A stretch of DNA of 64,000 nucleotides from Marinilabiliales bacterium (GTDB lineage Bacteria > Bacteroidota > Bacteroidia > Bacteroidales > ML635J-15): NCBI GenBank assembly GCA_002869385.1, contig PKTB01000010.1, forward strand, positions 1-64,000. The letters are read 5' to 3'. A model generated the notes under the pieces. It ran no database searches, had not been told where the DNA came from, and saw only the letters and a program-made list of their open reading frames with translations. A program made the position numbers and the translations under genes. Shown piece after piece: positions 2,630-63,265 of the stretch. The first letter of the stretch is position 1; the number at the start of each line of letters is the position of its first letter.

Positions 2630-4078
2630 ATGGCTGAGAATAGTATTTCATCAGAAAATCATGTTGTAGAATACAATAAGGAAGAATATGCAGAGGTGCT
2701 GGAACATAGTTTTTCAGATATATTATCAATATCGGATGGGGATAGGGATTTGTTTGAGGAATTGTACTATAATAGAGAAAGAGAATTTATTGATTTTAGA
2801 AATGCAGCGGAAAAGTTGTATTTAAATGGAAATAATATTTTAGTAATTGGTTCAGCAGGTGTTGGTAAAAGTAACTATGTGTATAAGTTGTTTTATGACA
2901 AAGAATTACTTGAGAAGTCAAAGTTGTTTCCAATGATGTTTGATTATAGGAGTATATCTCCAAATAGTTTAATAGGTTGGAAGCTACATTTTATTGCAAA
3001 GTTTATAGATTATTTTGAAAAGATAGCTTATAATATTCAGCTAAAAGACAATACTGTAGACAATATTGATGATAATTTGTTTAAATTGCAAAAGGAGTTT
3101 AAACACACACAAAAAGAGTTACTTACAAAACACCCAATTATTTTTGTGGATGACTTGGATTATTCAGAGGAGAAGCAGTTATTTGAATTACTTGACTTTC
3201 TTTCGCCATATGCAAGAGATAAAAAAATTAGTATTCTTCTATCAGTAAGACCTCCACTTTATCTTGCTATTCAACATAATGACTTTAAATATCATTTTTT
3301 GTTTACAAATAATGTTAAAAAAATAAAATTGCCTCCATTGCATATACATAATATTATAGCAGTGAGATTAGCTCCAGTTCTGGCTATACAGGAAAAGCAT
3401 AGTATTTTTGATAAGTTAAATGGATTAAAAGAGTCGGGATCAAAGTATAAGAAAATACTTAAAAAATTAGGAATATCAAATTTAGAAGAATTAAAAGAGT
3501 TTCAATACCCTTTTACAGATGATTATGTAAATTTTATGGCGAAAATTACTAATGGAAATTTGCGTGAAGTATTTGATATAGCAATAGATAGTCTTTCTTT
3601 TATTTTAGAGAATTACCATAGGCTTAAGGAATCTGTTGTTGATAATACATTAAGAAAGGTTATTAGTGAGGGACAAGCAGTTTCATTGTTTTTGAATAAT
3701 CCAGAATCTCGTTACAAGTTGTTCGATTTACATTCAAATAAAAATAGGAAAGGGAATTCAATTTACTTTAATGTACTTGAAGCGGTATCTGCATTTGGAT
3801 GTTCTTCTAACACAGGGTTTTATGAAGCATTAGAAGAGATGGGACATAAGAAAAAGGATGTAGATAATACATTAAAAGAATTGTAAAGAAGAAAACATCG
3901 GTTTTTAATATCACATAATTTTACATATGCAGTAGATAAGGTAAATGAAGCAAAGAAATTTAAAATTGCTGAGAAAGGGAGTTATTATCTTGAAGAAGTT
4001 GTAAAATGGGATGCTTATATTGAAAAATGCGGCAAATCAAAAGAATCTTTAATTGAAAAAATAAATAATGAGATATAA
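2630..4078 (+). CDS. ORC/AAA-like P-loop NTPase, interrupted by one in-frame TAA
   Basis: The 482-codon frame is open from ATG 2630 to TAA 4076-4078 except for one TAA at 3884-3886 (codon 419). Walker A is GSAGVGKS (residues 74-81) and Walker B is IIFVDDLD (about residue 172). Sensor-like LSVRPP and a TNGNLREVFDIA helix resemble ORC/Cdc6-type and STAND-adjacent ATPases. The segment after the stop (RRKHRFLISHNF and onwards) reads as the missing half of a C-terminal winged helix, so the ancestral codon was probably GAA. The gene overlaps the next one by 11 nt (start at 4068), suggesting translational coupling. A role in phage defence is inferred only from the island context. Confidence 0.7.
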
Positions 4079-6741: not shown

Positions 6742-9700
6742 ATGAATTTAAATAATAATAAATTGCATTTAATGGAATCAGAGAAGTTAATACAGAGTCT
6801 TATAAATGACATATTAAATAATAAAAAGATTATTTTTCTTATTGGAAGTGGCATGTCATTAAAAAGTGATCCTCATCTAAAAGAAGGAATCGGCGATTCT
6901 AGATTCTTTACTGAGAAATTTAAAGGGCTATTAAGGGATGGCTATAATACTACGAGAAAAGTTGAGTATGAGAAACTTATAAAGGAAGCAGAAAAAAGTG
7001 CTAATGAATACTCTTTTCTTGCAAAAAAGATTATTGAGAGTAAGCCAACTAAACAAGGGATTAGAGATATCAGCAAACTATTTAAGACTGAGATTCTTCC
7101 AATTTTAAATCTTAAAAATATAGATATTTCTAATAATAATAATATATCATATGCAATAAAAAACCCTGAAACTTGTAAAAATATTAGATTGAATCCTGGT
7201 TTTGAAGCATTTGGTAAACTTGGAAAATATTTTCAAAAATCGACTAGAATTATAACTGCAAATTTTGACCCTTTTATTGAAGTCGCATTAAGGAAGAACG
7301 ATATTGATATTTATCAGTTTAGTTATAGTTATAACCTTGAGCATAGAAATGTTTTCTCACCAACAAAAAATGAAATTGTTGTATAGCATTATCATGGGTA
7401 TTTTCTTTCAGAAACTGCTCATAATGATTTAGGTGAAAATTATAATAATAAGGATCAGTTTAAAGAAATAATAAAGGAATCTGATTGCATTTATGTATTT
7501 GGATTTGGAGGTTGGAAGGACGCATTTACTCAAGCAATAAGTGAATCAATAGATAACACATCGAACCAATGCGTTTTTCATTGGGCATTTCATTCAGGGA
7601 AGAAAGAGGTTGAAAGAAAAGTTGCAAAACTCGAAAATGAGCAATTTGCATTACTACAGCAGATTATTCAAAAAGAAACTTGCCAGTCGTATTTTAATAT
7701 TAATACGAACAGATTTTTTCCTCAACTTTTGACTAAGTTTAGAGAAAAAATATTTGAAAACGCACTTGAAAACTACGTTAAAGAGAAAAGAAAGGAGTTA
7801 AAAATAAAGAACAGAAAACAAGTTTTTGAAAGAACACCATTTAAGGTAGGAAAGCTAAATGAAAGATATTCTATTGAAACGACAGAAAATATTACTAGAT
7901 ATATTTATAATAAGCTAATTAATAACAATAGTATAGTTGTTTGCTCAAAGTTTGTGATGGGTAAGACAACCATTTTGGAGAATGCTTTTTTGGACTATAC
8001 AAAGGATCATTTTAATTACTCTTTAATAATAAACTTAGCATATCATGAACTTTCTCATTTGCTTGATGAGTCTCATTCATTTTGTCACACTATACTTAAC
8101 GAGTTAGATTTTAAAAATCAGGATATAGAAAAAGAGGCATTTTTAGATATAATTGATAAATATCTACATGATAATGATAGGAAATTACTTCTTATTCTTG
8201 ATGCAATTGATGAGTCAGTATTTAAAGACGAGGAGCTGAACCAGTTTCGAGAGAAACTAAAGAATTTAGATTATTCTATTTTAACATCAATAAGATTGGA
8301 ATTTCATGATTTTATTGATAATGCTATAGAACTCATAAAATGGAATTATGAAGCAGTTGAACTTGTTGAGTGGACAGAAGGTATTGTCAATGAATACTTA
8401 ATAAGCATTAATATTGAAGATGTTAAATCAAATAAGATTAAAGAATTTACAAATTTGAATAATAGACCTTTATTTATAGACATGATTGTCAAACTTAACA
8501 ATGATTCTCTAAAAAATATTTCTGATAATATTGCTAGTTTGTATTATCATACTATTATTGCTGCTATTGATAATGAAATACGGAATGCCTTTACGAATGA
8601 AATAGAGAATAGATATTTTTATTTATCGATTAAAAGAGAATACTTTGATTTTTTAAATTCAATTGCGATTGCTATATATATGGAGTTTCAGCATTACAAA
8701 TATGAGACTAACTATTTTTCTAAACCAATGGTTATATTTACAGATGAAAATATAAGATTATTAGTGAGCAAAAACAAATTTCTTGACTATGACAGAATAA
8801 AAAAGATCTTTGAGCAAACAGTATCTAATGGCATTAAACTAATTAAAGTAATAGAAAAAAAACAATCTAAATTTTACACTTTCTTTCATCGCTCATTTTT
8901 CGAATATCTTGTTGCAAATGGTGCCGCAGTAAAAATTTTAAGAGATAAAAGATGTTCTGAAGCATGGGACGTGTATCAAACTGACGAAGTCAGCGAGTAT
9001 TTTGTTCAGGAGATTAAACGTGAAAAAGTACAAAAGTCTCGTGAAAAGAAAGATAGTTTTTTCGTGGCTTTTGATATTGAGTTTATTGGAATGAGAAATG
9101 AGTTAGATAAACTTAAACTCAACCGGTCTGAGGATGAACTCCAAGAATATATAAAGAATATTGAAAGTGGAGAAAAAGATAATGCAATTAAAGAATATTA
9201 CAGTTTTAGAAGGAATATTAACGAAAGAACCGTAGTTTTTAAAAATCAATTAATAGAGTACTCTGAAAGACTAGAAGAAGCAATATATTATATTGGTAAA
9301 TTTCAAGATTTTTGTACTGAAGAACAAAAAAGTACATTTAGTCATTATTGTATGATTATGTTCTTTAACTCAAGAGTCACTTATAAGGATGAAATCATAA
9401 ATGAGTTTATCCCAATTATAGATCCTGTTTATTATAGAACTAGTAGTATTACTCTTAGTCGACTAATTAACAACTCTTATATTTTCGATTATATTTCATA
9501 TTTATTCCTTGATTATTTAACAACTGACAAGAAATATTTTTTAACTCAAATACGAAAAGATACTCGATATTATGGAAAAGAACAACTTGAAGAAAAATGT
9601 ATTTTAGCTTTTAATGAGATTTTAGAGATTAAAAATGATGTGGATTTAAAACCATTACAAATCCTGAAAGTATTTTCTTTATTCATTTCCTTATGGTATG

Positions 9701-10848
9701 ATTCTTCTGATAAAACAAAACAACAAAGTGCTTCTCTTAACATTGATAAGTTTAATGAAGTAAAATATAGATTTGAAAATCTGAAAGAACATTGTGAAAA
9801 ATGGAGTTTTACAAACACATTGGATATATTAGAAGGGATAGAATATATTTTAAGGGACATATCTTTTGAAGTTCGAATTCAAAATGTAAATGTAGAATTG
9901 CTTTTAAAGGAAGCTATAGAGAAAAGAAATCATGTTGAAAGAGAGATGTTTAGAATTGTAAATTAATGTGGAGATGGTCTTGATTATTTTGATGTTGATT
10001 ATTATGCTGGACATGTTATTATTGATGCAAAGAAGAAATACTATTATGAAAATAGAAAACAAATAATAGAAATATTAACTAGTAATTTAAAGCAGCCTAT
10101 TATTTCAATTTCATATAATAATAATAATTATGATGTAGACCTTAGATTAAAAGGCAAGGAATTTGAAACTCTATATGGTCAAAATGATTTTAATTCAAGA
10201 ATTGACTGTAATGAGATAATAGACATAATAGTTAAACCAATTAATTTTCCTAAAACCGGGTTTTTTATTGACAATAGTAATATAAGAACATTTTTATCAA
10301 AAAACAGCGAAGGTAAAAAGGTACTAAACTTATGTTCTTATACCTGCACCTTAGGGGCTATTGCTAGAACAAATGGAGCCACCTCAGTAATTAATGTTGA
10401 TAAAAATGGAGGCTTTCTTGAACTTGGCAAGGATATTTATAGAAAGCAAAAGCCAAAAATTGTGTTTGAGGATTCTGAGTTCATTAATAAAGATGTTAAT
10501 GAATATCTTGATAGTATTCCAAAGAATGATGAATTCGACATTATTATTTTAGACCTTCCTGAAATTTCACCTATACCATGTAATTTTATAAACACTGAGA
10601 ATACATATAGATCTATCAATAAGAAATGTCTAAAACGACTTAGTCAAAATGGTATTCTAATAACTTCTTGTTGTTCTCATGGTTTTAGAAGAGAAAGATA
10701 TCAACGAGTAATTTCAAATGTAATTGCTGGTACAGATTTCTATATAGATAAAGAATGTGTGTTTGACAAGCTCGAAGACCATCCCATCAAAGTCGGGGAT
10801 TCCAATAGTGATTATTTAAAAATCTACGTGTTAAAAAGAAAAATATAA
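6742..10848 (+). CDS. SIR2-like / NACHT-type STAND NTPase / RlmI-like methyltransferase fusion, with two in-frame stops
   Basis: A single frame of 1369 codons runs from ATG 6742 to 10848 with only two interruptions: TAG at 7384-7386 (codon 215) and TAA at 9964-9966 (codon 1075). Residues 1 to about 310 are SIR2-like: FLIGSGMS (33-40), TANFD (172-176), HYHG (216-219), VFGFGG (252-257). Residues about 400-730 are NACHT-type: degenerate Walker A SKFVMGKT (402-409), Walker B LLLILDAIDES (483-492), and FFHRSFFEYL before residue 725. A helical region follows. Residues about 1040-1368 resemble RlmI without its PUA domain: FRIVNxCGDGLDYFDVD spans the second stop, then KTGFFID (1171-1177), VLNLCSYT (1194), VNVD-type Asp 1220, FDIIILDLPE (DPP changed to DLP), SCCS (1310-1311) and DHP. 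The expected role is NAD-depleting or NAD-sensing abortive defence. The methyltransferase fusion is unusual. An alternative start at 6772 is possible. Confidence 0.7.
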
Positions 10849-11215: not shown

Positions 11216-11722
11216 ATGATGATTATTGAAGATTTTACTGGAGACGATTTTGAGAAAATGGCTCAAGAGATAAACGAAATTAGTGAATCAAACACTGAAG
11301 ATGAGATTCTAAAACTAATTGGTAATGCACTACATGATAGCGGGATGACTGTTGTAGATAACAACTCAAAAGGTATTATTAAACCAAAAATGTATAATCC
11401 AGAAAAAGAGAAATTTAACATTGTGAAATCTTTAAACTTTGTTGCAGATACAAAATCATTAACACCTAAGGATGCTAAAAAAGAAGGGAAGAAATTCTGG
11501 AAAAGGTTTAAAGAAGAATTACAAGAGGCGATTTGTAGTGATGATAAGATTAAAAAGCTAATGGACGGTAAAGGGACATTAAAAGAATACTTAGTTGTTG
11601 GAATTCCTATGGTCCTCGCAGCCTTGGGCGTTGCTTTAAATCCGATTTTTCTTGCAATTATTGCAGCTGTTTTTGCATTAATTATTAAAGTTGGGTTCAG
11701 AGCATACTGTGAAACAGAATAG
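11216..11722 (+). CDS. Protein of unknown function with C-terminal membrane hairpin
   Basis: The 168-residue product has an acidic soluble N-terminal part (to about residue 85), a Lys-rich linker (KKEGKKFWKRFKEEL), and then two closely spaced hydrophobic stretches at about residues 126-162 (LVVGIPMVLAALGVALNP / IFLAIIAAVFALIIKVG). These probably form a membrane hairpin. It is 12 nt upstream of a second membrane-anchored gene, so the two probably form an operon. No family is recognised. Its position between the SIR2-NACHT gene and Hachiman makes a membrane-acting defence role plausible, but this is inference. Confidence 0.6.
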   Translation: MMIIEDFTGDDFEKMAQEINEISESNTEDEILKLIGNALHDSGMTVVDNNSKGIIKPKMYNPEKEKFNIVKSLNFVADTKSLTPKDAKKEGKKFWKRFKEELQEAICSDDKIKKLMDGKGTLKEYLVVGIPMVLAALGVALNPIFLAIIAAVFALIIKVGFRAYCETE

Positions 11723-13193: not shown

Positions 13194-14027
13194 ATGAGAA
13201 AAGAATTATATGATTTAATAGAAAATTCGATTGTTTATAGATATGATTTACCAAATCATCATCTGGGAATTGACAGGTCGATATTTTCAAATGTTGATGA
13301 TAAGTGTTTTTCTGCGATAAGTAACGACTCTTTGGCTGAAATCATCTATAATTCAATTGTAGAATATTCGTTTAACGAGTTTGACATTGCAGGAAAAGAT
13401 TATGAGAAATTGCATACAGTTGCATTAAAAACAAAGTTGAAATATAATCCTGATGCAGAGGAAACCACTAAAATAAGTTATGGGTTTCATGGAGAAACAA
13501 TACTTTATTGCATGCTTTATGCTAAACTAAATGCAAAGCCTATAATTTCACGAGGTTACTTTTATAACCCTTTAGAGTCTGCAGAAACAAAAGGTTATGA
13601 TTCATATCACTTAATCGAGAAAAATGGTGTAACTGAATTATGGTTTGGCGAAGTGAAATTTAGAAACACACATAGTTCAGGGATAAAAAGTGCTTTGGAG
13701 AGTATTGAGAAAGCAATATCTGATGATTACTTGTCTTCTAATTTTTTAGCAATCACGAATCACAAAAACAATCTTAATATTAGTGGTTCTAAAGTAGAAA
13801 CAATTATAAGTCAATGGGAAGATAACCCTATAGTTGATATTATTGAAGAAATAAAAACACATGACATTAAACTTATTTATCCAATTATAATTCTCTATGA
13901 CGAGAGCCCAAGAGGTTACGATAAAAGTGTCGAAAATGCGGTAAAATATATAGAGGAAAGATACGAACAGAAGGACTTCGATTTATCGATTCCTTTTAGC
14001 ATTTATTTTATTTGGGGATACCTGTAA
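13194..14027 (+). CDS. hamA: HamA, DUF1837 nuclease-like subunit of Hachiman defence
   Basis: The 277-residue protein shows the DUF1837/HamA pattern: FHGETILYCML (Glu 101), GYFYNPLESAETKGYDSYHL (Asp 136), and LWFGEVKF with Glu 153 and Lys 155. Together these give a PD-(D/E)xK-like nuclease core. HamA is the effector of Hachiman; in known systems it is held inactive by HamB and degrades DNA when HamB meets damaged or phage-modified DNA. The next gene, 34 nt downstream, is the matching helicase, which makes the assignment firm. No in-frame stop is present. A hairpin GTTGC/GCAAC lies just upstream (about 13163-13180). Confidence 0.85.
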   Translation: MRKELYDLIENSIVYRYDLPNHHLGIDRSIFSNVDDKCFSAISNDSLAEIIYNSIVEYSFNEFDIAGKDYEKLHTVALKTKLKYNPDAEETTKISYGFHGETILYCMLYAKLNAKPIISRGYFYNPLESAETKGYDSYHLIEKNGVTELWFGEVKFRNTHSSGIKSALESIEKAISDDYLSSNFLAITNHKNNLNISGSKVETIISQWEDNPIVDIIEEIKTHDIKLIYPIIILYDESPRGYDKSVENAVKYIEERYEQKDFDLSIPFSIYFIWGYL

Positions 14028-14061
14028 GTAAAGTTAGAGACATAAAAATTAAAGTAATCGA

Positions 14062-16365
14062 ATGGATAGAGTCAAGGAAACCGCTGATTTAATAGTTGAG
14101 CTTAACAAATTTAAGAAAGGTGAATTGGAAGATTTTCAATTTATTAAAAACGTATGCGGTTATTTTGATAAAATCAAAGCAGAACAGATTTCTAAAAACG
14201 ATTATAGATTTTTAAAATTTATTGCTTCTAGTTCAGGGATTCCTCACTTTTATTACATTTTAAATCAATTTGAACAGACACCAGATATTGAAGAATTTGA
14301 TTTGAATACATTCTCATCATTGTTTTATGAAAGTATTCTACATACTGATGAAAGTAGTATGCTTCATAAATATAAAAAGGAAATTATAGATACGTTTGAA
14401 GTTGATAAAAGAAACCGATTGTTTCTTTCTGCTAGCACATCATTTGGTAAGACGCACTTGGTTTTTGATGTAATAAAAAAAATGAAATATGAGAATATTG
14501 TTTTAATATTTCCTACAATTGCTTTACTCTCTGAAAATCTAGAAAGAATGATTTCAGATAGTGAGTATTCATATTTTCACGAAAACTATTCGGTTCATAC
14601 ATTAAGCGAGGTAAATCAATTAGGCGACAAAAATCTATTTATTTATACCCATGAGAGATTCTTATCTTTTATTGAAAAATCAAATTTGGGGGTACAATTT
14701 GACTTTGCGTTCGTCGATGAAGTTTACAAAATTGATAACGATTACCTAATTGATGAAGAATTAAAAGAAAATGAAAGAGATGTAGCATATAGGTTAGCGG
14801 TACATTATGCTTTAAACGATAATACAGATGTGTTGCTTGCTGGTCCATACATGGACTTTGATACCCCAAACTCTTTGAACTACAATAGTTCTTTTGATAA
14901 TTTTCTAGCAGAAAATGAAATCTCATTTTTTGATTATAATAATTATGAAATCGTAAATAAAACGTATTTAAATATAAAGAGAGCTAGAGTGTCATATCCT
15001 GATAATCAATTAGACATTCATTATTCTACTAGTGGCAAAACACAAAGATTGATTGAGACAGCAGAAGCGATTATTAATATACCTCAAAATTTAATTATCT
15101 ATTGTGCACGGAAGAATGGAAATGGAGGTGTAGAATATTATGCAAGTTCTTTGATAAATTCGGGGATTATGGAAAATCATGATTCATCCGAATATGAAGA
15201 TGTGATTTCGCATATCGAAAGGAATTTTACAAAAGAATGGATTTTAGTAAAAGCATTGAAACAAGGTATTGGGATTCATCATGGTCTTGTTCCAAAATAT
15301 ATTCAAAAGGAAATTATAAGCCTTTTTAACCAAGGTGCTTTACGAATCCTTATTTCAACAACGACAATTACAGAAGGAGTAAATACTTCAGCAAAGAATT
15401 TAGTCGTTATGCATTCAAAAAAAGGAAATAAAGACTTAAAGAAGTTTGATGCAAAAAATATAGCTGGTCGTGCAGGCAGATTTGGATATCATTACAGTGG
15501 CCGAGTTATTGATTTAAGTGGACAATTTATCAAAGTAATAAATGGAGAGGCTGAAATTATAAAGCATAAGAATTACGACGAAAATTCACCTAAGGACGAA
15601 ATAGATTTATTCTATTCAGGCGATAAATATTTATCACAAAATGACAAACAAAGAAAGAATGAAATAGAAGCAGAACAGCTAAAGAGGAATATTCCAGAAG
15701 AAATATTGAATCAATATAAAGTAATTAGCCGACTTGATAAGATGCGTGTTTTTGATATAATGTCTAAACTCACAGATGAAGAGCTTGCATTGATAAAGAA
15801 ATTAATCCGATTCATTAATTATAAAATGGATATAGATTATGCAGGTTTTCAAATCATTTTAAATGTTTTAGAGCCTATCGTAAAGAATCAAAAACTTAAA
15901 TTCCTAATCTAATATAAAGGGGAAACTGGAGAGGGTTTCTCAATGTTAACGAATTTGGTACATTTCTATTTAGTTGGTGGGTTTAAAAGTTCTATACTTT
16001 ATCATCATAGACAAAGAGGAGCTTCAATAGATGAAGCAATAAGAAAAACATCTGAATTTGTTTATAATACATTAAAATATCAAGCAGTGAAATACTTATG
16101 TGTATTCAATATAATGTACAAGTATTTTATCTCCATTAATTCTGTAACTAAGTTTGAAGATGTAACTGGTATTGATAGGTTGTTACTAAAATTTGAATAT
16201 AACGCACTGACTGATGAAGGTCGAATTGCAAGTGATTATGGTGTACCATCAAGTATTGTAGATTATTATGAAAATCCAGAGCAACAATTGGACATAAAGG
16301 CTGGGTTTGATGGATATGAATTGATGACATTTAATAAAATTGATAAAATAATACGAAATGAATAA
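14062..16365 (+). CDS. hamB: HamB, superfamily 2 helicase of Hachiman defence, with one in-frame TAA
   Basis: The 768-codon frame is broken once, by TAA at 15910-15912 (codon 617), and continues in the same frame with a conserved-looking segment (YKGETGEGFSMLTNLVHFYL). Helicase motifs are STSFGKTH (Walker A, about 125-132), FAFVDEVYKI (motif II, about 214-223), LISTTTITEGVN (motif V region) and NIAGRAGRFG (motif VI, about 468-477). HamB senses DNA ends or intermediates and controls the HamA nuclease. The pair follows the usual hamA-hamB order. The stop probably replaced GAA (Glu), although TCA is possible, and would remove the last 150 residues. Confidence 0.85.
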
Positions 16366-16532: not shown

Positions 16533-17768
16533 TTACACCTCAACATCAAACTTCCCATTCAAATGCTGCATATCCTTACCAACTTTTTTATCAAGTAACC
16601 TTGCATAAATTTTAGTCATACTTATTGAGGAGTGACCTAGCATTTTTGATACCGTTTCAATTTGCACATTATTATTTAAAGTAACTGTGGTTGCAAATGT
16701 GTGGCGAGCAAGATGGCTAGTAAGTTTCTTTTCAATTCCACACAGGTCAGCAATTTCTTTGAGATATGCATTCATCTTTTGATTTGAGTTTACCGGTAGT
16801 AATACACCTTTCTCATTACAATAGGAGTTGTCTTTGTATTTATCCAGTATTTTTTGTGCTGCATTTAGAATTGGAATACTACTTAGGACTTCTGTTTTTT
16901 TACGTTTGATTTTAATCCATTTACCACCATCTGTTCCTATAACAATATGATCGTGATTGAGTTTTTGAATATCGGAATGTGATAATCCTGTAAAACAAGA
17001 AAACACAAAACAATCACGCACCTGTTCCAAGCGTTTAATCGAGAGTTTCAAGTTAATGATTTTGTTTAGCTCTTCATCAGTTAAAAAGCCTCTGTCAACT
17101 TTTTTGTAACGAACTTTATATCCTGCAAAAGGGTTAGAAGTTAAATATCCATTTGCAAGAGCCAGGTTGATTATCTTTTTCAGGTTTTGGATATACTTGC
17201 TGGTTGAGTTTTGAGAACAATTACAGGTAGTTTTAAAGTAGAATTCAAAATCAGTTACAAACTTGTGATCTAAATCTGATAAATAGAGATCTTTGGTACC
17301 ATATTTTTGTTTTATAAAAGTCTGAGTGTGTTTTAGGGTTGTTTTATATCGCTTTAAGGTTGTTGCGGAATAATCTATGCCGACAAGTTGTTCGAACCTA
17401 GCATTATGTTCTTCGAAAAGTTCAATTAGTTTCATTCCTTTTTCTTCTTCAGGAACAATTCCAAGAAATGCATTTTTAACAGATTTAGCTGTTACTGATT
17501 TTCCTGTTTCACGAAGATATTTGTATTTTTCATAAATAGTAGAACGAGTAGACTCCAGTAATGAGTTGAGTTCTTTGGTCTTTTTCGAATTCCCTGTTGC
17601 ACATCCAATATTTGAGTTCCAGTAGTTTTGGGCAACATCTACATGCATTGACATATCTGTTCTTTCTCCGTTAACTGTAATCCTCAAATACACAGGCATT
17701 TCATTGTTGTTTTTTGCTCTGTGTTTTTTGAGAAAGTAATGGACACTAAAAGTGTTTCTTTTTTCCAT
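16533..17768 (-). CDS. Tyrosine recombinase/integrase of the island
   Basis: The 411-residue protein is a phage-integrase-family recombinase of the Bacteroidota type: N-terminal arm-binding domain, then a SAM-like core-binding domain (about 100-200), then a catalytic domain. Visible catalytic residues are Arg in CFTGLSHSDIQKL (the Arg position appears replaced by a His-Ser context), Lys in KRKKTE, His-x-x-Arg in TSHLARHTFAT, His in MLGHSSISMT and Tyr in KIYARL. It is read away from tRNA-Gln, whose 3' end lies 240 nt upstream of its start, the usual arrangement for an element inserted at a tRNA. The first catalytic position deserves a check: family members usually read TGLRxSD. Confidence 0.85.
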   Translation of the reverse strand: MEKRNTFSVHYFLKKHRAKNNNEMPVYLRITVNGERTDMSMHVDVAQNYWNSNIGCATGNSKKTKELNSLLESTRSTIYEKYKYLRETGKSVTAKSVKNAFLGIVPEEEKGMKLIELFEEHNARFEQLVGIDYSATTLKRYKTTLKHTQTFIKQKYGTKDLYLSDLDHKFVTDFEFYFKTTCNCSQNSTSKYIQNLKKIINLALANGYLTSNPFAGYKVRYKKVDRGFLTDEELNKIINLKLSIKRLEQVRDCFVFSCFTGLSHSDIQKLNHDHIVIGTDGGKWIKIKRKKTEVLSSIPILNAAQKILDKYKDNSYCNEKGVLLPVNSNQKMNAYLKEIADLCGIEKKLTSHLARHTFATTVTLNNNVQIETVSKMLGHSSISMTKIYARLLDKKVGKDMQHLNGKFDVEV

Positions 17769-17983: not shown

Positions 17984-18007
17984 ACGTTTTTTTGCTTTCG
18001 CAATCCG

Positions 18008-18078
18008 TTGTCCGACAAGGATTCGAACCTTGACTGTATGAACCAAAATCACAAGTGCTACCATTACACCATCGGACA
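18008..18078 (-). tRNA. tRNA-Gln (anticodon UUG)
   Basis: On the minus strand the 7-bp acceptor stem TGTCCGA/TCGGACA closes a full cloverleaf with GGTGTAATGGTAGC as D-arm, anticodon stem TGTGA/TCATA and loop TTTTGGT giving anticodon TTG, and GGTTCGAATCC as T-arm. The discriminator is A; CCA is not encoded (CGG follows). Gln tRNAs are common integration targets, and the integrase gene lies on its 3' side. I found no second copy of the tRNA 3' end in the window, so the left junction is probably outside. Confidence 0.93.
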
Positions 18079-25673: not shown

Positions 25674-28600
25674 ATGAAAAGAAAATTACTAAAACTAATT
25701 CTCTTGTGCATTAGCGTGTTTATTTATACGCTTGCCGGAGCACAAGAAAACTTTGGAGACCCCATAGATATTGGGGTTGTAAACGGCGTATATGAATGTG
25801 GTGCGATTTATTCGCATAGCGATAATTCATGTAACTATGTTGATGACGTTGCTGGTACTAATGGTGCGCCAGATGTTGTGTATCAGTTTGAATTAACTGC
25901 TGATGCAACAGTGTTGATGAGCATGTGTAATGGAACTAGTTATGACTCATATTTATATCTTTTTGATGGATCTGAGACATTGGTTACATCAAATGATGAT
26001 GCCTGTGGTGTTTATAGCGAGATAGAAGCATCTATTACAGCTGGAACATACTATGTTGTAGTTGATGGATTTAGTACCAGTTGTGGGTCCTATACTCTTG
26101 AGGTATCTATTGCCGGGGAAGATATTACACCACCGGTTCCACAAGCAGGGAGTTTGCCTGATTTGTTGGATCCATGTATGATAGCCTCAGTGGTACCACC
26201 TTTTGCTGATGACAATTGTGTAGGATTAATTGTCGGGACAACTGAAACAAGTTTTCCGATTTATGGAAGCACTACAATTACCTGGTCTTTTGAAGATTTA
26301 TATGGAAATATTTCGACTCAGGATCAAATTGTGATAATAGGTGATTCCGACCCACCGGTTCCTGACCTAGTGAGTTTGGATGATGTCGTTGGGGAATGTA
26401 ATATTGATGACCCAATTGCACCAACAGCTACAGATGCTTGCGGAGGTCCGGTAACAGTAACGCATGATGCGGCTCTACCTATCGCGCAAGGAACAACTGT
26501 TGTAACCTGGACTTACGAAGATGCTAACGGAAACTCTGTGACCCAAACACAGAACTTTATACTTAATGATTTGGAAGATCCAACTATTACTTGCCCACCA
26601 GAGATAACACTTGAAACAGATGTGGATGCTTGTGAGGCAAGTACAACAAGTGAAAATGTATATTATATTTCTTCTGCACAATTAGTTGGTGTAGATTACA
26701 ATGGTCCGATTTGTAATGGAACTCCAGATGCTTGGGTTTGTGGTGATTCGTTTGAACTTACATGGAATAGCGAGGAGACAAACATCCCAATAGGAGTTGA
26801 TGTTGAGTTTTATCAATCATATAATGATAACTTTGGAGCACTTCCTTTATTCTTTAATGGTATTCCTGATGATAATTATGAAGGACCTATAGAGTCTTGT
26901 GTAAATAATCTTGTAAGCGTTACATTAAATCCGTCAAGTTATAATGTGGGAGGATTAAATTCAATTATAATTAACTCATTTGATGAATGTCTTGTTCTTG
27001 ATCAGAATCCTGCATGGTGTATGGATGTTTATGCAAAAGTAATAGTTTATACTATAAATAGTAGTATCGGTGAACCTATCGCTGAAGATAATTGCGGGAT
27101 AGAGATAATAGTAAACGATGTACTACCTACATTAACATTAGGAACACATACTGTAGAGTGGATGGCTATTGATCAGGTCGGAAATTTTGCAACATGTACT
27201 CAAGAGGTAACAGTTGTGGATGCAACTCCACCAGTACCTGATTTGGCTGTGTTGCCGGATGTTATGGATGAATGCGAAGTTACAGTTTTAATTGATCCAA
27301 CAGCTACTGATGCTTGTGGAGGAGTTGTTACTGTAACAAATGATGCTGTATTACCTATCAACACACAAGGCACAACAGTCGTAACATGGTATTATGAAGA
27401 TGAATTTGGCAATATTAGCAGTCAAACACAGAATATTGTTATTGACGACATAACTGATCCAATACAAGACTTAGCTGTATTACCGGATTTAAATGACCCA
27501 TGTGCGATAACATCTTTAACACCTCCAACAGCAACAGATAATTGTGGAGGCATGGTAACAGTTACACATGATGCAACATTACCAATATATGGAAGTGGAG
27601 TAATTACATGGACATATGATGATGGAAATGGTAACACTGCGACTCAAACTCAAACTGTAATTGTTGATGACGTTGATGCACCTGTTCCGGACCTAGCTGT
27701 TTTAGACGATATTACAGCTGAATGTGAAATAACTTCTCTGGAAGAACCTACGGCAATTGATGCTTGTGGAGGTGAAGTTACAGTTACAAATGATGCAGTA
27801 TTACCAATTACTGCGCAAGGAACAACTGTTGTGACATGGACATATACAGATGATAACCTTAATAGTGTAACTAAAACTCAAAATGTTATTTTAACAGATG
27901 TAACAGAACCTGTACCTGATTTAGCAGATCTCCCTGATATTACAGCTGATTGTGAGGTAACATCTTTAGTTGACACTAATGTAACAGACAATTGTGGGGG
28001 AACGGTTATTATTACTAATGATGCAGTTCTACCTATTACTGGAGAAGGAACTACAACTGTAGTAACCTGGACATATGATGATGGAAATGGTAATATAGCA
28101 ACACAAACACAAAATGTAATTATTGAAGATTTAACACCACCTGTACCTGATGTTTCTTTAGGAGAACCTTCAAATATAGAAATTGTTATTGTTGATTTGT
28201 ATGGGATTGCTGATGAAATTGGATGGGAGCTAAGAGATGCCTCTGATGTCGTTATTATTTCAGGAGGGCCTGGTGCAACAGGTACTTATATTGCAAGCTC
28301 AATGAATGGGCCTTATACTTTTATTGCAGAGACTCAAGGTTATTGGAATGATAATTCATTTAGTTTTGATTTGTCTTGTAATGGAACCAATTTCTTATCA
28401 GGTTCAATAACAGGAGGTCAATATCTTACTTACACTGACTTAGAAACCTGTGGTCAGGAGAGCTATTATGAATTGCCAGAATATGTTATGGAGTGTGGAG
28501 AAACTGTTTCTGCAATACCAACGGCTACAGATGCATGTACTGGATCTATTACCGGAATAACAACTTATCCATTAGAATATGCTGATCTTGGTACATATAC

Positions 28601-31600
28601 AATTGCATGGGATTATGAGGATGGTAATGGTAATACATTAACTCAAATTCAGGATGTTATTGTTACAGACCTTACTGGACCAGTTCCAGACCTTGCAGTT
28701 TTGGACCCTGTAAGTGGTTCTTGTGAAGTAACGTAACTTATTGCACCTACAGCTACAGATAATTGTGCAGGAGCAATAACAGGCACAACAGATGAAGTGT
28801 TTCCAATAGAAGCAACAACAATGGTAGAGTGGACTTATGATGATGGCAATGGTAATTTTACTATTCAAACCCAATTAGTAATTATTGAGGATGTGACAGC
28901 TCCTGTACCGGATTTAGCCGTACTGGATGATGTTAGTGGAGAATGTGAAGTAATATCATTAGAAGAACCAACAGCTACAGATGATTGTTCTGCAGAAGTA
29001 ATTGTTTCAAATGATGCTGTTTTCCCAATTACTACATTAGGAACAAATGTGGTTACTTGGACATACGAAGATGCCAATGGTAATACTGCTACCCAAACTC
29101 AAAATGTCATTATTGAAGATAATACCGATCCTGTATTTGCTACACTTGAAGATATTACTGTCTCAACAAGTTTAGCATCTTGTGATGCGAATTTGTCAGT
29201 AACAAATGTTTATTATATTCCTGTTGGTCAATTGTCTGGATTTTCTTTAGGTACCGGACCAGCTTGCGGTTTTGGAAATGAGGCAGATATTTGTGGAGCA
29301 AGCGGAAACCTTAGTTGGACATCTATAGAGTCTACTGTGCCAAGTAGTGTCGTTATTGAGTTATTCCAGGTTGCTAATACATGGGGAACTGGAAACCCAA
29401 CAGAATTTAATGGGGTAGCTGCCGATACATACGACAGCCCGTTTGATATTTGTACACCAACAATAGTTGAGATAAATCTATCACCAGATGACTATATTGT
29501 TGGAGGAGTAAACACATTGATGATTTCTGCATTAGATTGTATAGCCATTAGTGAAAATCCAGATCCTGCATGGACCCCACTTTCATACGCTAAAGTAACA
29601 GTTGAAGTCACTGGATTACCTGAGCCTGATGTTACTGATAATTGTGGCATTGAAAGTTTAACGAATGATTTGGTTCCTCCTTTAGGAATTGGTGATCATG
29701 TAATTACCTGGACTGCAACTGATTTTGCCGGAAACTCAGCAAGTGCAACACAAAATGTGACAGTTGCTGATCTTGTAGGACCAACACCGGATGTTGCTGA
29801 ATTGCCTGATGTAAATGAACCTTGTGAAATAATATCACTTACAGAACCAACAGCTACCGACAATTGTGGTGGAGTGGTTACTATAACATCTGATGCTGTA
29901 TTACCAATTACTGAGAATACAACAGTAACCTGGACATACGAAGATGAAAATGGCAATATAACCACACAAGAGCAAATCATAATAATTGACGATGAACTTC
30001 CTGTTCCGGATGAACTTATTTTGACAGATATTGAAGAATCATGTTCTGTAGAATCAATTACTTATCCTACGGCAACAGATAATTGTCTTGGAACAATTAC
30101 TGGAGTTCCTGATATTGCTCCTCCTTACAATGTGTCTACAACAGTAACTTGGACTTATGATGATGGACATGGAAACAATGTTACTCAGACACAGAATATT
30201 ATTGTTAATGATATGGTTCCTCCTGCACCTGATATGCCAATTCTTGACGTTTTAACAGCAGAGTGTTCAATTGAACCCGTTGCCCCAACTGCAACCGACA
30301 ACTGCTCAGGCGAAATTACTGGTGTGTCAAACACTGTATTTCCAATTGACGTACAAGGAACTACAGTAATTGAATGGAGTTACGAAGATTCTAATGGTAA
30401 CATTAGCTATCAAGATCAAACGATTATTATAGAAGATGTAACACCTCCAGTTATAGAAGCTCTTGACGCTATTGAAGTTAGTACAGGAGAATTAACTTGT
30501 GATTGGGATGATTTTGCTAGTTTAGTAGCACCAACTGCAACAGATAATTGTGGAATGGGTACTGTAACTCATGATTTAGTTGATCCACTTGCAGTAGGGA
30601 CTCATACTATTACTTGGACAGCTACTGATGCTGCTGGTAATGTAAGTACAACTACCCAAGAAATAGAAGTTTTAGACCTTACAGCACCTGTACCTGATGT
30701 CGCTGTACTTCCTGATCTTGAAGATAACTGTAAGATTACATCATGGACTGAACCTACTGCTACAGATGGATGTTTTGGTACAGTTACAGGTGTACCTGAT
30801 GTTTCTTTACCAATTCTTGAAAGTACAACTATAACTTGGACTTATACTGATGATAATTCTAACGAAGTAACACAAACACAAACAGTAATTATAGGGCATG
30901 ATATTCCACCTACACCAGATGTAGAGGAATTAGATGACTTTATTGCTTCATGTGAAGTAACTTCAATAGATCCTCCTACTGCAACTTCTGAATGTGCAGA
31001 GCCAATAGAAGGAACAACTGATGCGGTATTCCCAATTACAGAGCAAGGAAGTACAATAATAACATGGACTTATACAGATGAGTTTTGTAATGTTGCTACA
31101 CAGAACCAGTATGTGTTTGTGATGGATTATAATGATCCTGTACCTGATGTATCAAGTCTTCCTGTAATAACTGTTTGTGATGAGTTGACTGAATTAACTC
31201 CTCCAACAGCAACAGACGATTGTTCTGGCAGTGTTACTGGCGTTCAAAGTTTTGGTTTACCATTAACTGCTTCAACAACATTGACTTGGACATATACTGA
31301 TGCTAATGTAAATAGTGCAGTTCAGTTTCAATCAGTAGTAATTAACACAGCTGATGTTACTGTTACTAACGAAAGTCCAACCCTTATTGCGAATGCAGAA
31401 GGAGCAACTTACCAATGGTTAGATTGTGATGATGGCTATGCCCCGATAAGTGGTGAGACGAATCAAATTTTTGTTGCTACAGAAGATGGAAATTATGCTG
31501 TTGAAGTTACACAAAACGGATGTACAGATATTTCAGATTGTATTAGTGTGACAAATTCAGGAATAAACATATCTTCTGCTAATGGTATTAACGTTTACCC

Positions 31601-31811
31601 TAATCCAACATCAGGAATTTTAAATGTTGAATTAGCTAAACTTGATGAGACATCATGGAAGCTGGTTAACGTTACAGGTCAGGTTGTTTTGGAAGGAAAT
31701 TCATCGGATGACAGGTTCTCTGTCAATATGGAAAATCTTTCTCCGGGAGTTTACGTTCTTAATATTCAGCAAAATGATAAGGTATTTACAAAGCGAATTG
31801 TACGCAAATAG
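25674..31811 (+). CDS. Giant HYR-repeat T9SS surface protein, one in-frame TAA
   Basis: The frame has 2046 codons with one TAA at 28734-28736 (codon 1021). The order is: signal peptide (TLAGAQ), a PPC-type beta-sandwich (about 35-155), then some 20 HYR/Ig-like repeats of about 75-80 residues beginning PVPDLAVLDD and carrying CEVTSLxxPTATDxCGG and TTVVTWTYxDxNGN. Two longer inserted domains (near 310-470 and 1160-1310) are divergent copies of each other. A final Ig-like unit and a T9SS type A sorting domain (INVYPNPTSGILNVE ... RIVRK) follow. Across the stop the repeat reads CEVT-stop-LIAPTATD, so the lost residue is Ser (TCA to TAA). The expected role is adhesion or surface structure. Confidence 0.8.
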
Positions 31812-45905: not shown

Positions 45906-47102
45906 ATGAAAACAAGACTAGTTTTATTAAGCACACTTATAGCAATATTCTTATTAAGTGTAATTTCTTTTTCATCATGTAAAAAAGATGACGATGATGA
46001 TCCTCAATCAACAGATTATGTATTAGTAATTGAAAATGGTGCACAAAACATTGAACCGGGAGAAAGCATTTCATATTCAGCGATTTTAATCGATGAAGAT
46101 GGAAATATTTCAAATCCAAGTGGAATTGTTTGGTATGTTACACCTGATTCGGTTGCAAGTATAAATTCATCTGGAGTGCTTTCAACTTCAGCTACAGGGA
46201 AAGCAAAAGTAACTGCAACTGTTAGTATTGATGGGGTGAGTGTTAGCGCCTCTGTTCCTGTTGGAGTTTATGCACCAGTTCTTTTTGCTGTTGCACCATC
46301 TGCTATTTTATTTGAAGCAGGTCATGACATTCAATTAGAGACTGTTTACTTCAGTAATTCTGCACCACCTACATACACATATTCATCTAGTAATACTTCT
46401 GTAGCAACGGTTAGCTCGTCTGGTTTGGTTAGTTTGAATGCAGCAGGTGAATGTGTAATTACAGTTACTGCTAGTAATCAACAAAATGCACCATTTTATG
46501 TGCCGGTACTGGTTATAGAAGCTCCTCAAGTTCCACTACCTGTAACAAGAGTTGAGTTAAATCATTATTCTAAGGACCTGTTTAAAAATGAAACGGTTCA
46601 ACTTTCAGCAACAGCTTATAATATGGAAGGTGCAGTTACTGATGCAACTATTACATGGGCATCAATGAATTCTGAGATAGCTACTGTATCAAGTAATTGA
46701 CTTGTTACACCTGTACGAACAGGAGAAACTTATATTACTGCAACATCAAATGGTATTGTTGCTCAATGTGAATTATTGGTAAATCCTGATACAGTGGTTT
46801 TAGTTACACCTTTCTATAGAGATATGGAGCAGGGTGAAACATATCAGTTTACGGCTACAGCATATAAGAATCAAAGGAGCGGACTAGGAGAAACATACCC
46901 AATTGATTTTGAATGGTTAATTCCTGATTACGGACCTGGTTTTGAGATGTTCAATATTGGAACAGTTGATAGTGATGGTAATGTAACAATTAGCAATTCA
47001 GCAATGATGGGAATGATGTCTTTTGTAATGGCATATGATCCAAACAATGAATATGTTTGTGGTGCTGCTATGATTATGATAGATATAGGATTTACCTGGT
47101 AG
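45906..47102 (+). CDS. Surface lipoprotein with BIG2-type Ig domains, one in-frame TGA
   Basis: The frame has 399 codons with a lipoprotein signal (SVISFSSCKKDDDDD, followed by acidic residues that mark surface lipoproteins) and three to four BIG2-like Ig domains. Each has the pattern WYVTPDSVASINSSGVLSTSATGKAKVTAT. One TGA at 46698-46700 (codon 265) reads VSSN-stop-LVTPV; the two other repeats have SSG at this position, so Gly (GGA) was lost. The role is probably carbohydrate or surface binding. Confidence 0.72.
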
Positions 47103-61162: not shown

Positions 61163-63265
61163 ATGAACTCCAATTTAGAAAATACTCGTAATATAGGAAT
61201 AATGGCTCATATAGACGCTGGTAAAACCACGACTACTGAGCGTATTTTATATTATACTGGTATTAACTATAAAATTGGTGAAGTTCATGATGGTACTGCT
61301 ACAATGGATTGGATGCGCCAAGAGCAGGAAAGAGGTATAACAATTACCTCTGCAGCAACCACTACCTTTTGGGAAGCGGATAATAGTAGATATAAAATTA
61401 ATATTATCGATACTCCCTGTCATGTTGACTTTACAGTTGAAGTTGAGCGTTCGTTAAGAATACTTGATGGAGCTGTTGCTGTTTTTTGTGCTGTTGGTGG
61501 CGTTGAACCTCAAAGTGAAACTGTTTGGCATCAAGCTGACAGATATAATGTTCCAAGATTAGCATTTGTAAATAAAATGGATAGATCTGGAGCAGACTTT
61601 CACTCTGTTGTTAATCAAATTGAGGAAAAGCTTGGAGCAAATCCTTTAGTGTTGCAATTACCAATTGGTGCTGAGGATGATTTTAAGGGTGTTGTCGATC
61701 TTATTGAACAAAAAGCATATGTTTGGGATGAAGATGACTCTCTGGGTGCCAAATTCACTATAACCGATGTTCCTGAAGATATGCAGGACGAAGTATATGA
61801 ATATCGCGAAAAACTTATCGAAAAAGTTATCGAAGCTGATGATCATATGCTTGAACGGTTTTTTGAAGACAGGACTAAAATTTCGGTTAAAGAGTTTAAA
61901 CAACTACTTCGTAAATTTGTAATCAATAGTAATTTTGTTCCGGTTTTTTGCGGTTCTGCGTTTAAAAACAAAGGAATACAACCTCTTTTAGATGCAATTT
62001 GCGATTACCTTCCCTCACCTGTCGATGTAGAAGCTATTACAGGGCACCATCCTAAAACAGACGAAATAATAAGCAGACATCCTGAATCAGACGGAGCATT
62101 TGCGGCTATGGCTTTTAAGATTGCTGACAACTCATATGTTGGTAAACTTACATACCTTAGAATATATAGCGGTAAAATTACCAGCGGACAAATGATTTAT
62201 AATGTTCGAACTGGTAAAAAATAGCGAATTACCCGTATCTTCCAGATGCACTCAAATAAGCAAACACAAATTGACGAGATTGAAGCTTGTGATATCTGTG
62301 CCGTTGTTGGACTAAAAGATGTTATTACCGGCGATACACTTTGTTATGATAAAAAACCTATAGTTTTAGATAAAATGCAGTTCCCTGAACCAGTAATATC
62401 TATAGCTGTAGAAGCACAATATCAGGCTGATTTGGAAAAGCTCACTAATGCACTTGATCGTTTAGCACTAGAAGACCCAACATTTACTATCAGATATGAT
62501 GAGAATTCTGGTCAAACTTTGATTAGTGGAATGGGGGAGTTGCATTTAGAGATTATTATTGACAGATTAGTCAGAGAATTTGGATTAAAAATTAACCAAG
62601 GTAAACAACAGGTTAATTATAAAGAAGAACTTCTTGATTCTGTTGTTCATAGTGTTGTATTTAAAAAACAAACCGGTGGAAAAGGTCGTTTTGCAGAAAT
62701 TGCTGTAAATATTGGCAAATGTGATAACGACGAAGTTACAGGATTAGAGTTTATAAATAGTATTAAGGGTGGAGTAATCCCGAAAGAGTTTATTCCTTAT
62801 ATAGAAAAAGGGTTTAGAGAAGCAATGCAGAATGGACCTATTGCAGGATATCCTGTTCATAGCATGAGAGTTGAATTGGTTGATGGATCATTCCATTCTG
62901 TTGATAGTGATGAGATGTCATTCCAAATTGCTGCCGGTATTTGCTTTAAAGAAGCAAGTCAAAAGCTGTCAGCAGGGCTTCTAGAACCAATTATGAAACT
63001 CGAAATTATTACTCCTGAGGATTACCTCGGTGATATTAGCGCAGACCTTAACAGAAGAAGAGCTGTAATTGAAGGGATGGATAGTAAAGGTCAGCACAGA
63101 GTATTAAGAGCAAAGGTGCCTTTGGCCGAGCAGTTTGGATATGTGACAGCACTTAGAACATTAAGTTCTGGAAGAGCTTTATTTAGTATGGAGTTTTCTC
63201 ACTATGAAGCTGTTCCTAATGAGATTAGAGAAGAATTGATAAATAATAGAAAGTTTATTTTTTAA
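61163..63265 (+). CDS. fusA: Elongation factor G with one in-frame TAG and a mutated G3 motif
   Basis: The full frame is 701 codons, from ATG 61163 to 63265. TAG at 62222-62224 (codon 354) interrupts [26 protein letters not shown], where EF-G has Glu (GAG). The G domain has [12 protein letters not shown] (G1), RGITITSA (G2) and NKMD (G4). G3 reads DTPCHVD where DTPGHVD is invariant; the codon is TGT at 61418-61420, one G-to-T change from GGT. Domains III-V lie after the stop. EF-G drives translocation and is essential, so the gene is unlikely to be truly broken in a living cell. Its place after rpsL and rpsG marks it as the canonical copy. Confidence 0.93.

Follow-up and report, generated by a model that had tools for sequence, protein, structure and literature searches.

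A 64,000-nucleotide stretch from a Marinilabiliales bacterium (positions 1 to 64,000 of contig PKTB01000010.1; hereafter the window) carries a gene for a single protein that joins a SIR2 domain, a NACHT nucleoside triphosphatase (NTPase) module, a helical region and an RlmI-like methyltransferase-fold tail. Nine homologous proteins keep this arrangement over their full length. We read the protein as an anti-phage immune receptor of the SIR2-NACHT, or nucleotide-binding leucine-rich repeat receptor (NLR), type in which the tail serves as an integrated sensor, and we give this reading a probability of about 0.5. Such a receptor would likely destroy the cell's nicotinamide adenine dinucleotide (NAD) upon phage attack, a form of abortive infection. 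Fusions of SIR2 with signal transduction ATPases with numerous domains (STAND) are a known kind of protein; what sets this one apart is the RlmI-like methyltransferase tail, which would be an unusual sensor.

A conserved fusion of SIR2, NACHT and methyltransferase domains

The reading frame occupies positions 6742-10848 of the forward strand and comprises 1369 codons. It is interrupted by a TAG at 7384-7386 and a TAA at 9964-9966 and ends with a TAA at 10846-10848. An earlier note on this DNA had described a single frame with two stops and had quoted its motifs, and we re-found both at 6742-10848. We searched a database of 5.8 billion proteins with the frame, placing an X at both stops, and scored 7994 candidates. 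Seven whole proteins of 1333-1368 aa matched, with a coverage of 98-100% each. P0002 is the nearest, at 99% identity to the window frame, and probably represents this very gene from a different record of the organism; identity to the frame is 44-63% for the remaining six. A search with the tail alone, limited to long proteins, returned the same seven and two more, each of 1336 aa. All nine align across the SIR2, NACHT, helical and methyltransferase parts, with 32-64% identity to P0002 for the other eight. Because these alignments run over the full length of every protein, the fusion is a conserved architecture and the frame is one coding unit; nine full-length co-alignments go beyond chance.

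The note had placed the methyltransferase inside this protein and not in a neighbouring gene, had called for stop-free homologues with all domains, and had named homologues ending before residue 1000 as evidence against the fusion. The second stop falls within the RlmI-family match at 9904-10836, the nine proteins (1333-1368 residues) are stop-free and contain every domain, and none of these SIR2 members ends before residue 1000. A short SIR2-STAND gene followed by a separate methyltransferase gene is ruled out, since the two are fused in all nine proteins. The note's frame stands; its start at 6742 probably does not. Translation more likely begins at 6772, because six of the seven proteins from the frame search begin at the frame's second methionine. 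The gene and its parts are as follows.

6772..10848, forward strand: SIR2-NACHT-helical-RlmI-like methyltransferase gene with two internal stops (open from ATG 6742, conserved start ATG 6772)
6772..7731 (limits approximate), forward strand: SIR2 domain, residues 11-330 of the frame
7384..7386, forward strand: internal TAG within the SIR2 domain
7897..8946 (limits approximate), forward strand: NACHT NTPase and winged-helix part, residues 386-735
8947..9876 (limits approximate), forward strand: helical region, residues 736-1045, in part common to P0009 (described below)
9877..10845, forward strand: RlmI-like methyltransferase-fold domain without PUA, residues 1046-1368; family match 9904-10836
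9964..9966, forward strand: internal TAA within the methyltransferase domain

The GxGxS, TxNxD and HG motifs of SIR2 and the Walker A and B motifs of NACHT are present in all nine members. The Sir2 family PF13289 matched six of the nine at E 0.1 or better and exceeded its cut-off in P0002 and P0005. We modelled residues 11-760 of P0002 from 7 sequences (predicted local distance difference test score, pLDDT, 75.6; predicted template modelling score, pTM, 0.75). The SIR2 part of this model matches SPARSA, SIR2/HerA, ThsA and DSR2. The leading structure matches of the NACHT part are NLRC4, NLRP3 and NOD2, and the fold predicted for the NACHT switch resembles that found in animal immune receptors. 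Homologues, profiles and models bear out the proposal that SIR2, a NACHT STAND module and an RlmI-like methyltransferase without PUA reside in one protein.

The helical region lies between the NACHT and methyltransferase parts of the SIR2 members. A second protein search returned, together with the seven, a more distant trypsin-NACHT protein of 885 aa (P0009). Its match to P0002 covers residues 397-769 and 893-990, corresponding to NACHT and some of the helical region, and in P0009 no methyltransferase follows.

The RlmI-like tail is conserved and altered

A model of residues 736-1368 (7 sequences; pLDDT 79.9, pTM 0.77) matches PH1915, TTHA1280, RlmO, SMU.776 and E. coli RlmI, and sequence profiles agree. 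The structure prediction that the note had proposed for the C-terminal part thus returned an RlmI-type methyltransferase. The methyltransferase core family PF10672 lies above its curated cut-off in 9/9 members. Scores against the RlmI equivalog NF053718 were 83.5-109.2 bits in the four members scanned and 82.6 in the window, below the cut-off of 575. This cut-off is strict: most of 14 control genomes and all 20 congeners also fall below it, with full-length congener RlmI scoring 223-245 bits. In the four members the NF053718 matches begin only at profile position 70-75, and on this basis we take the PUA domain to be absent from the tail. No PUA family appears among the Pfam families of the nine members at E 0.1; the aligned range of the structure matches extends into the helical part and RlmI's first residues.

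We compared the tail with ordinary RlmI, represented by the 29 best loci of the same phylum outside the window's own genome, which are not a random sample. KTGFF, the motif II acid, Asp1177, Arg1179, Asp1271, Cys1311, Ser1312, DHP and YLK are kept in all nine members. Motif IV reads DPP in 29/29 ordinary RlmI and in none of the nine, which have DLP, DLA or DFP instead. The loop after KTGFF is IDNR[NK]IR in 9/9. Throughout the seven proteins of the frame search, residue 1178 is Asn, 1181 Ile, 1202 Cys and 1272 Leu, where ordinary RlmI has Gln (29/29), Asn (28/29), Gly (29/29) and Pro (29/29); residue 1275 is Phe in all 29 ordinary sequences and in none of the seven. The two further members have Cys and Ala at 1202 and Leu and Phe at 1272. 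The SCS cysteine (Cys1311) is also found in 29/29 ordinary RlmI, and in RlmI enzymes this residue and the motif IV Asp have catalytic roles. The note's phrase "altered or lost catalysis" therefore holds in its first half, as motif IV is changed in all nine; loss need not follow, as the motif IV Asp and the SCS cysteine are retained in every member.

Conservation among the seven proteins is highest in the tail core, with a mean pairwise identity of 0.535, compared with 0.516 for the helical region and 0.451 for the N-terminal part of the tail. A tree separates the seven tails from the 29 ordinary RlmI by a 100/100 branch with a long stem; this tree has no root, and the program cautions about long branches and letter composition. 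Because the core is conserved, key residues are changed and the tails form a separate long-stemmed branch, the tail appears to be a repurposed domain, either a ligand binder or an enzyme, that is under constraint and has a changed pocket.

E. coli RlmI binds cyclic di-GMP through R64, R103, G114 and K201, as given in part of PMC11894153. The residues aligned with R103 and K201 (Arg1071 and Lys1171) are invariant in the tail, but R64 and G114 are gone, and we set a cyclic di-GMP sensor aside as a weak lead. R64 precedes the matched part of the alignment and presumably falls in the PUA domain, which is missing here.

The host clade appears to lack full-length RlmI

The genome that contains the window (4.25 Mb in 28 contigs, 93% complete, with the window at the start of contig 17; G000) yielded no full-length ordinary RlmI. 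Full-length RlmI is present in 12 of 20 congeners and was not found in the other 8, some congeners in this count being incomplete assemblies. The 8 congeners without it are the best 8 of 17 near-full-length matches to G000 over the ribosomal-protein/fusA stretch, and a clade-wide loss of RlmI around G000 is likely. A loss confined to this strain, for which the tail would compensate, is unsupported, given that no full-length RlmI was found in the 8 nearest congeners either and that the fused tail occurs in 0/20 congeners.

Proposed function and alternatives

In the sensor model, the helical region and the tail would keep the NACHT module closed at rest. A phage-related ligand would engage the tail; the likeliest candidates would be an RNA, a ribosome or a state of ribosome assembly, and a phage protein with affinity for methyltransferases of this type. 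The NACHT module would then oligomerise, and the SIR2 domains would hydrolyse NAD and halt the infected cell. The tail is our first-choice sensor because Avs5 (AVAST type 5) runs in the order SIR2, STAND, C-terminal sensing repeats (part of PMC12931631) and the tail ends the protein here. The note had put the methyltransferase where STAND proteins carry their sensor. This is right for the C-terminal end, with the qualification that a helical region, partly P0009-like, intervenes after NACHT. Given the lack of a PUA domain and a replaced motif IV throughout the nine members, we infer that the tail binds and does not act as a normal rRNA methylase.

Several observations weigh against the sensor model. 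P0009 has NACHT and part of the helical region and no methyltransferase, so the helical region alone may sense. Retention of the motif IV Asp and Cys1311 in 9/9 members speaks for an active enzyme. The motif I glycine is missing in all nine, and it is also missing at the aligned place in SMU.776, whose structure (3ldf) was solved with S-adenosylhomocysteine (SAH); with an SAH-bound relative lacking it, this change is no argument against binding of S-adenosylmethionine (SAM), which the tail may still be capable of. A tail that mimics or replaces a resident RlmI is unlikely in this host, because no full-length protein was found in G000 or its 8 nearest congeners, although 12 of 20 congeners have one. 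Finally, the window's own copy has two stops and a Walker A motif unlike that of the nine.

A more specific proposal, which we offer tentatively, is that of an integrated decoy like those of plant NLRs. A captured rRNA methyltransferase that has lost its own job would serve as bait or gauge for what phages do to ribosomes, to ribosomal RNA or to the enzymes that modify them, and NAD destruction would be the response.

Sensing could instead reside in the helical region, with the tail merely stabilising the protein, tethering it (for example, to ribosomes) or restraining it. The combination in P0009 of NACHT and part of the helical region with a trypsin-type effector would fit this arrangement, as would a helical region about as conserved as the tail core. 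We nevertheless consider it rather unlikely: family-specific residues fixed in the tails of all nine SIR2 members would be odd for a mere tether, and P0009 is the sole protein of its type that the search returned, with 7994 candidates scored and no match in 394 other phylum genomes at E 1e-8.

It is somewhat more doubtful that the tail is an active RNA cytosine methyltransferase, one that marks host or self RNA to keep the SIR2-NACHT module off or that modifies phage RNA or ribosomes in response. In favour of activity, the KTGFF, motif II acid, motif IV Asp, Cys1311, Ser1312 and DHP kept in all nine members fit ordinary RlmI. Against activity stand the uniform replacement of DPP, the IDNR[NK]IR loop in place of Gln1178 and Asn1181, the absent PUA part and a host clade that appears to live without RlmI.

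The internal stops point to a sequence-level cause

Counting the stops, ten residue positions separate the frame from P0002, and one of these lies in Walker A. A G:C to T:A change can account for each of the ten and is the only single change able to do so for six; a simple count puts the chance of this at ~2e-5. Over the ribosomal-protein/fusA stretch, G:C to T:A makes up 7 of 24 singletons in the window's genome versus 16 of 224 in 11 congeners (Fisher p 0.003); the share of A:T to T:A is also higher there (8/24 versus 40/224, summed). Both elongation factor G (EF-G) genes above the family cut-off, at 61163-63265 of the window and at 69322-71376 of contig 19 of the same genome, carry one internal stop each, a TAG and a TGA, respectively. 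A third EF-G-like match has an internal TAA, and rpoB has no internal stop. An alternative genetic code is ruled out by this mixture, with TAG and TAA in the fusion gene, TAG and TGA in the EF-G genes and none in rpoB.

Taken together, these patterns suggest a cause that affects the sequence at large, most simply sequence error and less simply a mutator lineage, which explains them better than loss of this one gene. The two stops and the other departures from P0002 would also be expected of a dead remnant that yields no working protein in this host, an explanation we regard as improbable given that every difference can be explained by a class of change also in excess in the ribosomal-protein/fusA stretch of the genome and that both EF-G genes are interrupted as well. 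Elsewhere in the window, the frames at 25674-31811 (TAA at 28734) and 45906-47102 (TGA at 46698) also stop and then resume in register.

Genomic setting

The fusion gene lies near two features that likely mark the edge of a mobile element.

16533..17768, reverse strand: tyrosine recombinase (integrase) beside tRNA-Gln (phrog_1, 2.6e-44)
18007..18078, reverse strand: tRNA-Gln (ttg)

The integrase likely marks one end of the element that bears the gene, and tRNA-Gln is its likely attachment site. To the right of the fusion gene lie HamA and HamB of Hachiman, then the integrase and tRNA-Gln; to the left are endolysin-like and RadC-like genes. G+C content is 26-32% across 2 to 16 kb versus 29-39% to the right of 18 kb. 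These features are consistent with a prophage, or an element like it, that is integrated at tRNA-Gln and carries defence genes. The opposite end of the element would be marked by a repeat of the tRNA-Gln 3' end, and a search allowing one mismatch found none.

HamA and HamB, at 13194-16365, are separated from the fusion gene by 2.3 kb. An in-frame TAA at 15910 interrupts HamB, and its register is taken up again by a further frame at 15943-16365. A small gene at 11216-11722 encodes a hydrophobic C-terminal stretch, judged by eye, and matches the PADLOC candidate PDC-M35B (1.3e-10). The trypsin part of P0009 matches PDC-M35A (1.3e-6), so that the two PDC-M35 halves touch two related NACHT proteins, M35B beside the fusion gene and M35A within P0009. 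Considered as a possible conserved partner, the small gene was found in only 1 of 345 class genomes, the window's own. An AAA ATPase gene at 2630-3886 (418 aa) scores just below the cut-off for AAA_22 (8.4e-6); neither PADLOC (at 0.1) nor PHROG (at 0.001) gave a match for it.

Distribution and relation to described families

Among the matches listed for 395 genomes of the phylum, own genome included, that of the own genome alone is full-length, and all others are tail-only. The single match among 393 genomes of the order is again the own genome. In named genome contigs there were two matches, both restricted to the tail, and the one inspected is an ordinary RlmI; viral contigs gave none. Fourteen phage and 34 plasmid records matched, none beyond 80% of the query; one plasmid match, a 1039-aa SIR2 protein, aligned to residues 8-415 only (SIR2, linker and the start of the NTPase).

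No PADLOC model matches the whole protein. Across the nine members there was one match each to two Argonaute-associated SIR2 models (best 9.9e-06), SP_VI (0.0018) and Csm2 (0.053), and none of these four PADLOC families is named for Avs5. When the window was scanned in pieces, the SIR2 piece matched generic SIR2 models (best 8.1e-5), a result that was not repeated with whole proteins. Likewise, a match of the tail piece to mad2 of MADS (143 residues, 6.7e-14) did not recur with whole proteins, and we take it as a shared methyltransferase core. We found no description of a SIR2-NACHT-RlmI-like architecture in the literature searched, in which broad topics were covered by top-ranked papers only.

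An enzyme-derived domain at the sensing end offers a concrete and testable clue to the object of surveillance, be it RNA, ribosomes or SAM-linked chemistry. Should the tail prove to be a sensor, bacteria too would have integrated enzyme decoys of the sort described in plant NLRs. If it is an active enzyme, RNA modification would be tied to NAD-depleting immunity.

Comparison with known systems

The protein shares its SIR2 motifs and predicted SIR2 fold with the NADase effectors of SPARSA, Thoeris (ThsA), DSR2 and SIR2/HerA. Those systems have sensing parts and oligomers other than those of the present protein, and we know of no methyltransferase-like domain in any of them. In known SIR2-STAND and Avs proteins, the sensing parts are mostly helical repeats.

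The tail resembles RlmI (the 23S rRNA m5C1962 methyltransferase), RlmO, PH1915 and SMU.776 in predicted fold, motif order, motif IV Asp, SCS cysteine, KTGFF and DHP. Unlike these enzymes, it has neither PUA nor DPP, its loops are changed, it is fused to an NTPase and it scores far below the equivalog cut-off.

With bacterial NACHT (bNACHT) proteins and animal NLRs the protein has in common the modelled NACHT fold, for which NLRC4, NLRP3 and NOD2 are the top structure matches. The bNACHT proteins described in part of PMC12169576 carry PD-(D/E)XK effectors with NCH1, or SNaCT C-terminal domains. The present protein differs from bNACHT proteins and animal NLRs by its N-terminal SIR2 effector and by a C-terminal domain derived from an enzyme.

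Avs5 has a similar layout, with an N-terminal SIR2 domain, a central STAND NTPase and a C-terminal sensing part in a single protein, and EfAvs5 ranks second in Foldseek for residues 11-760. Its ATPase is of the nSTAND3 type and its C-terminal part consists of helical repeats, according to part of PMC12931631. The ATPase of the present protein models as an NLR-type NACHT, and the nSTAND3 profile (PF20720) matched one of the nine members, at E 0.061. The label "Avs5-type" in the earlier note is apt as an analogy. In all nine members a domain of ~320 residues related to RlmI follows the helical region, and it is this domain, not helical repeats, that forms the end of the protein.

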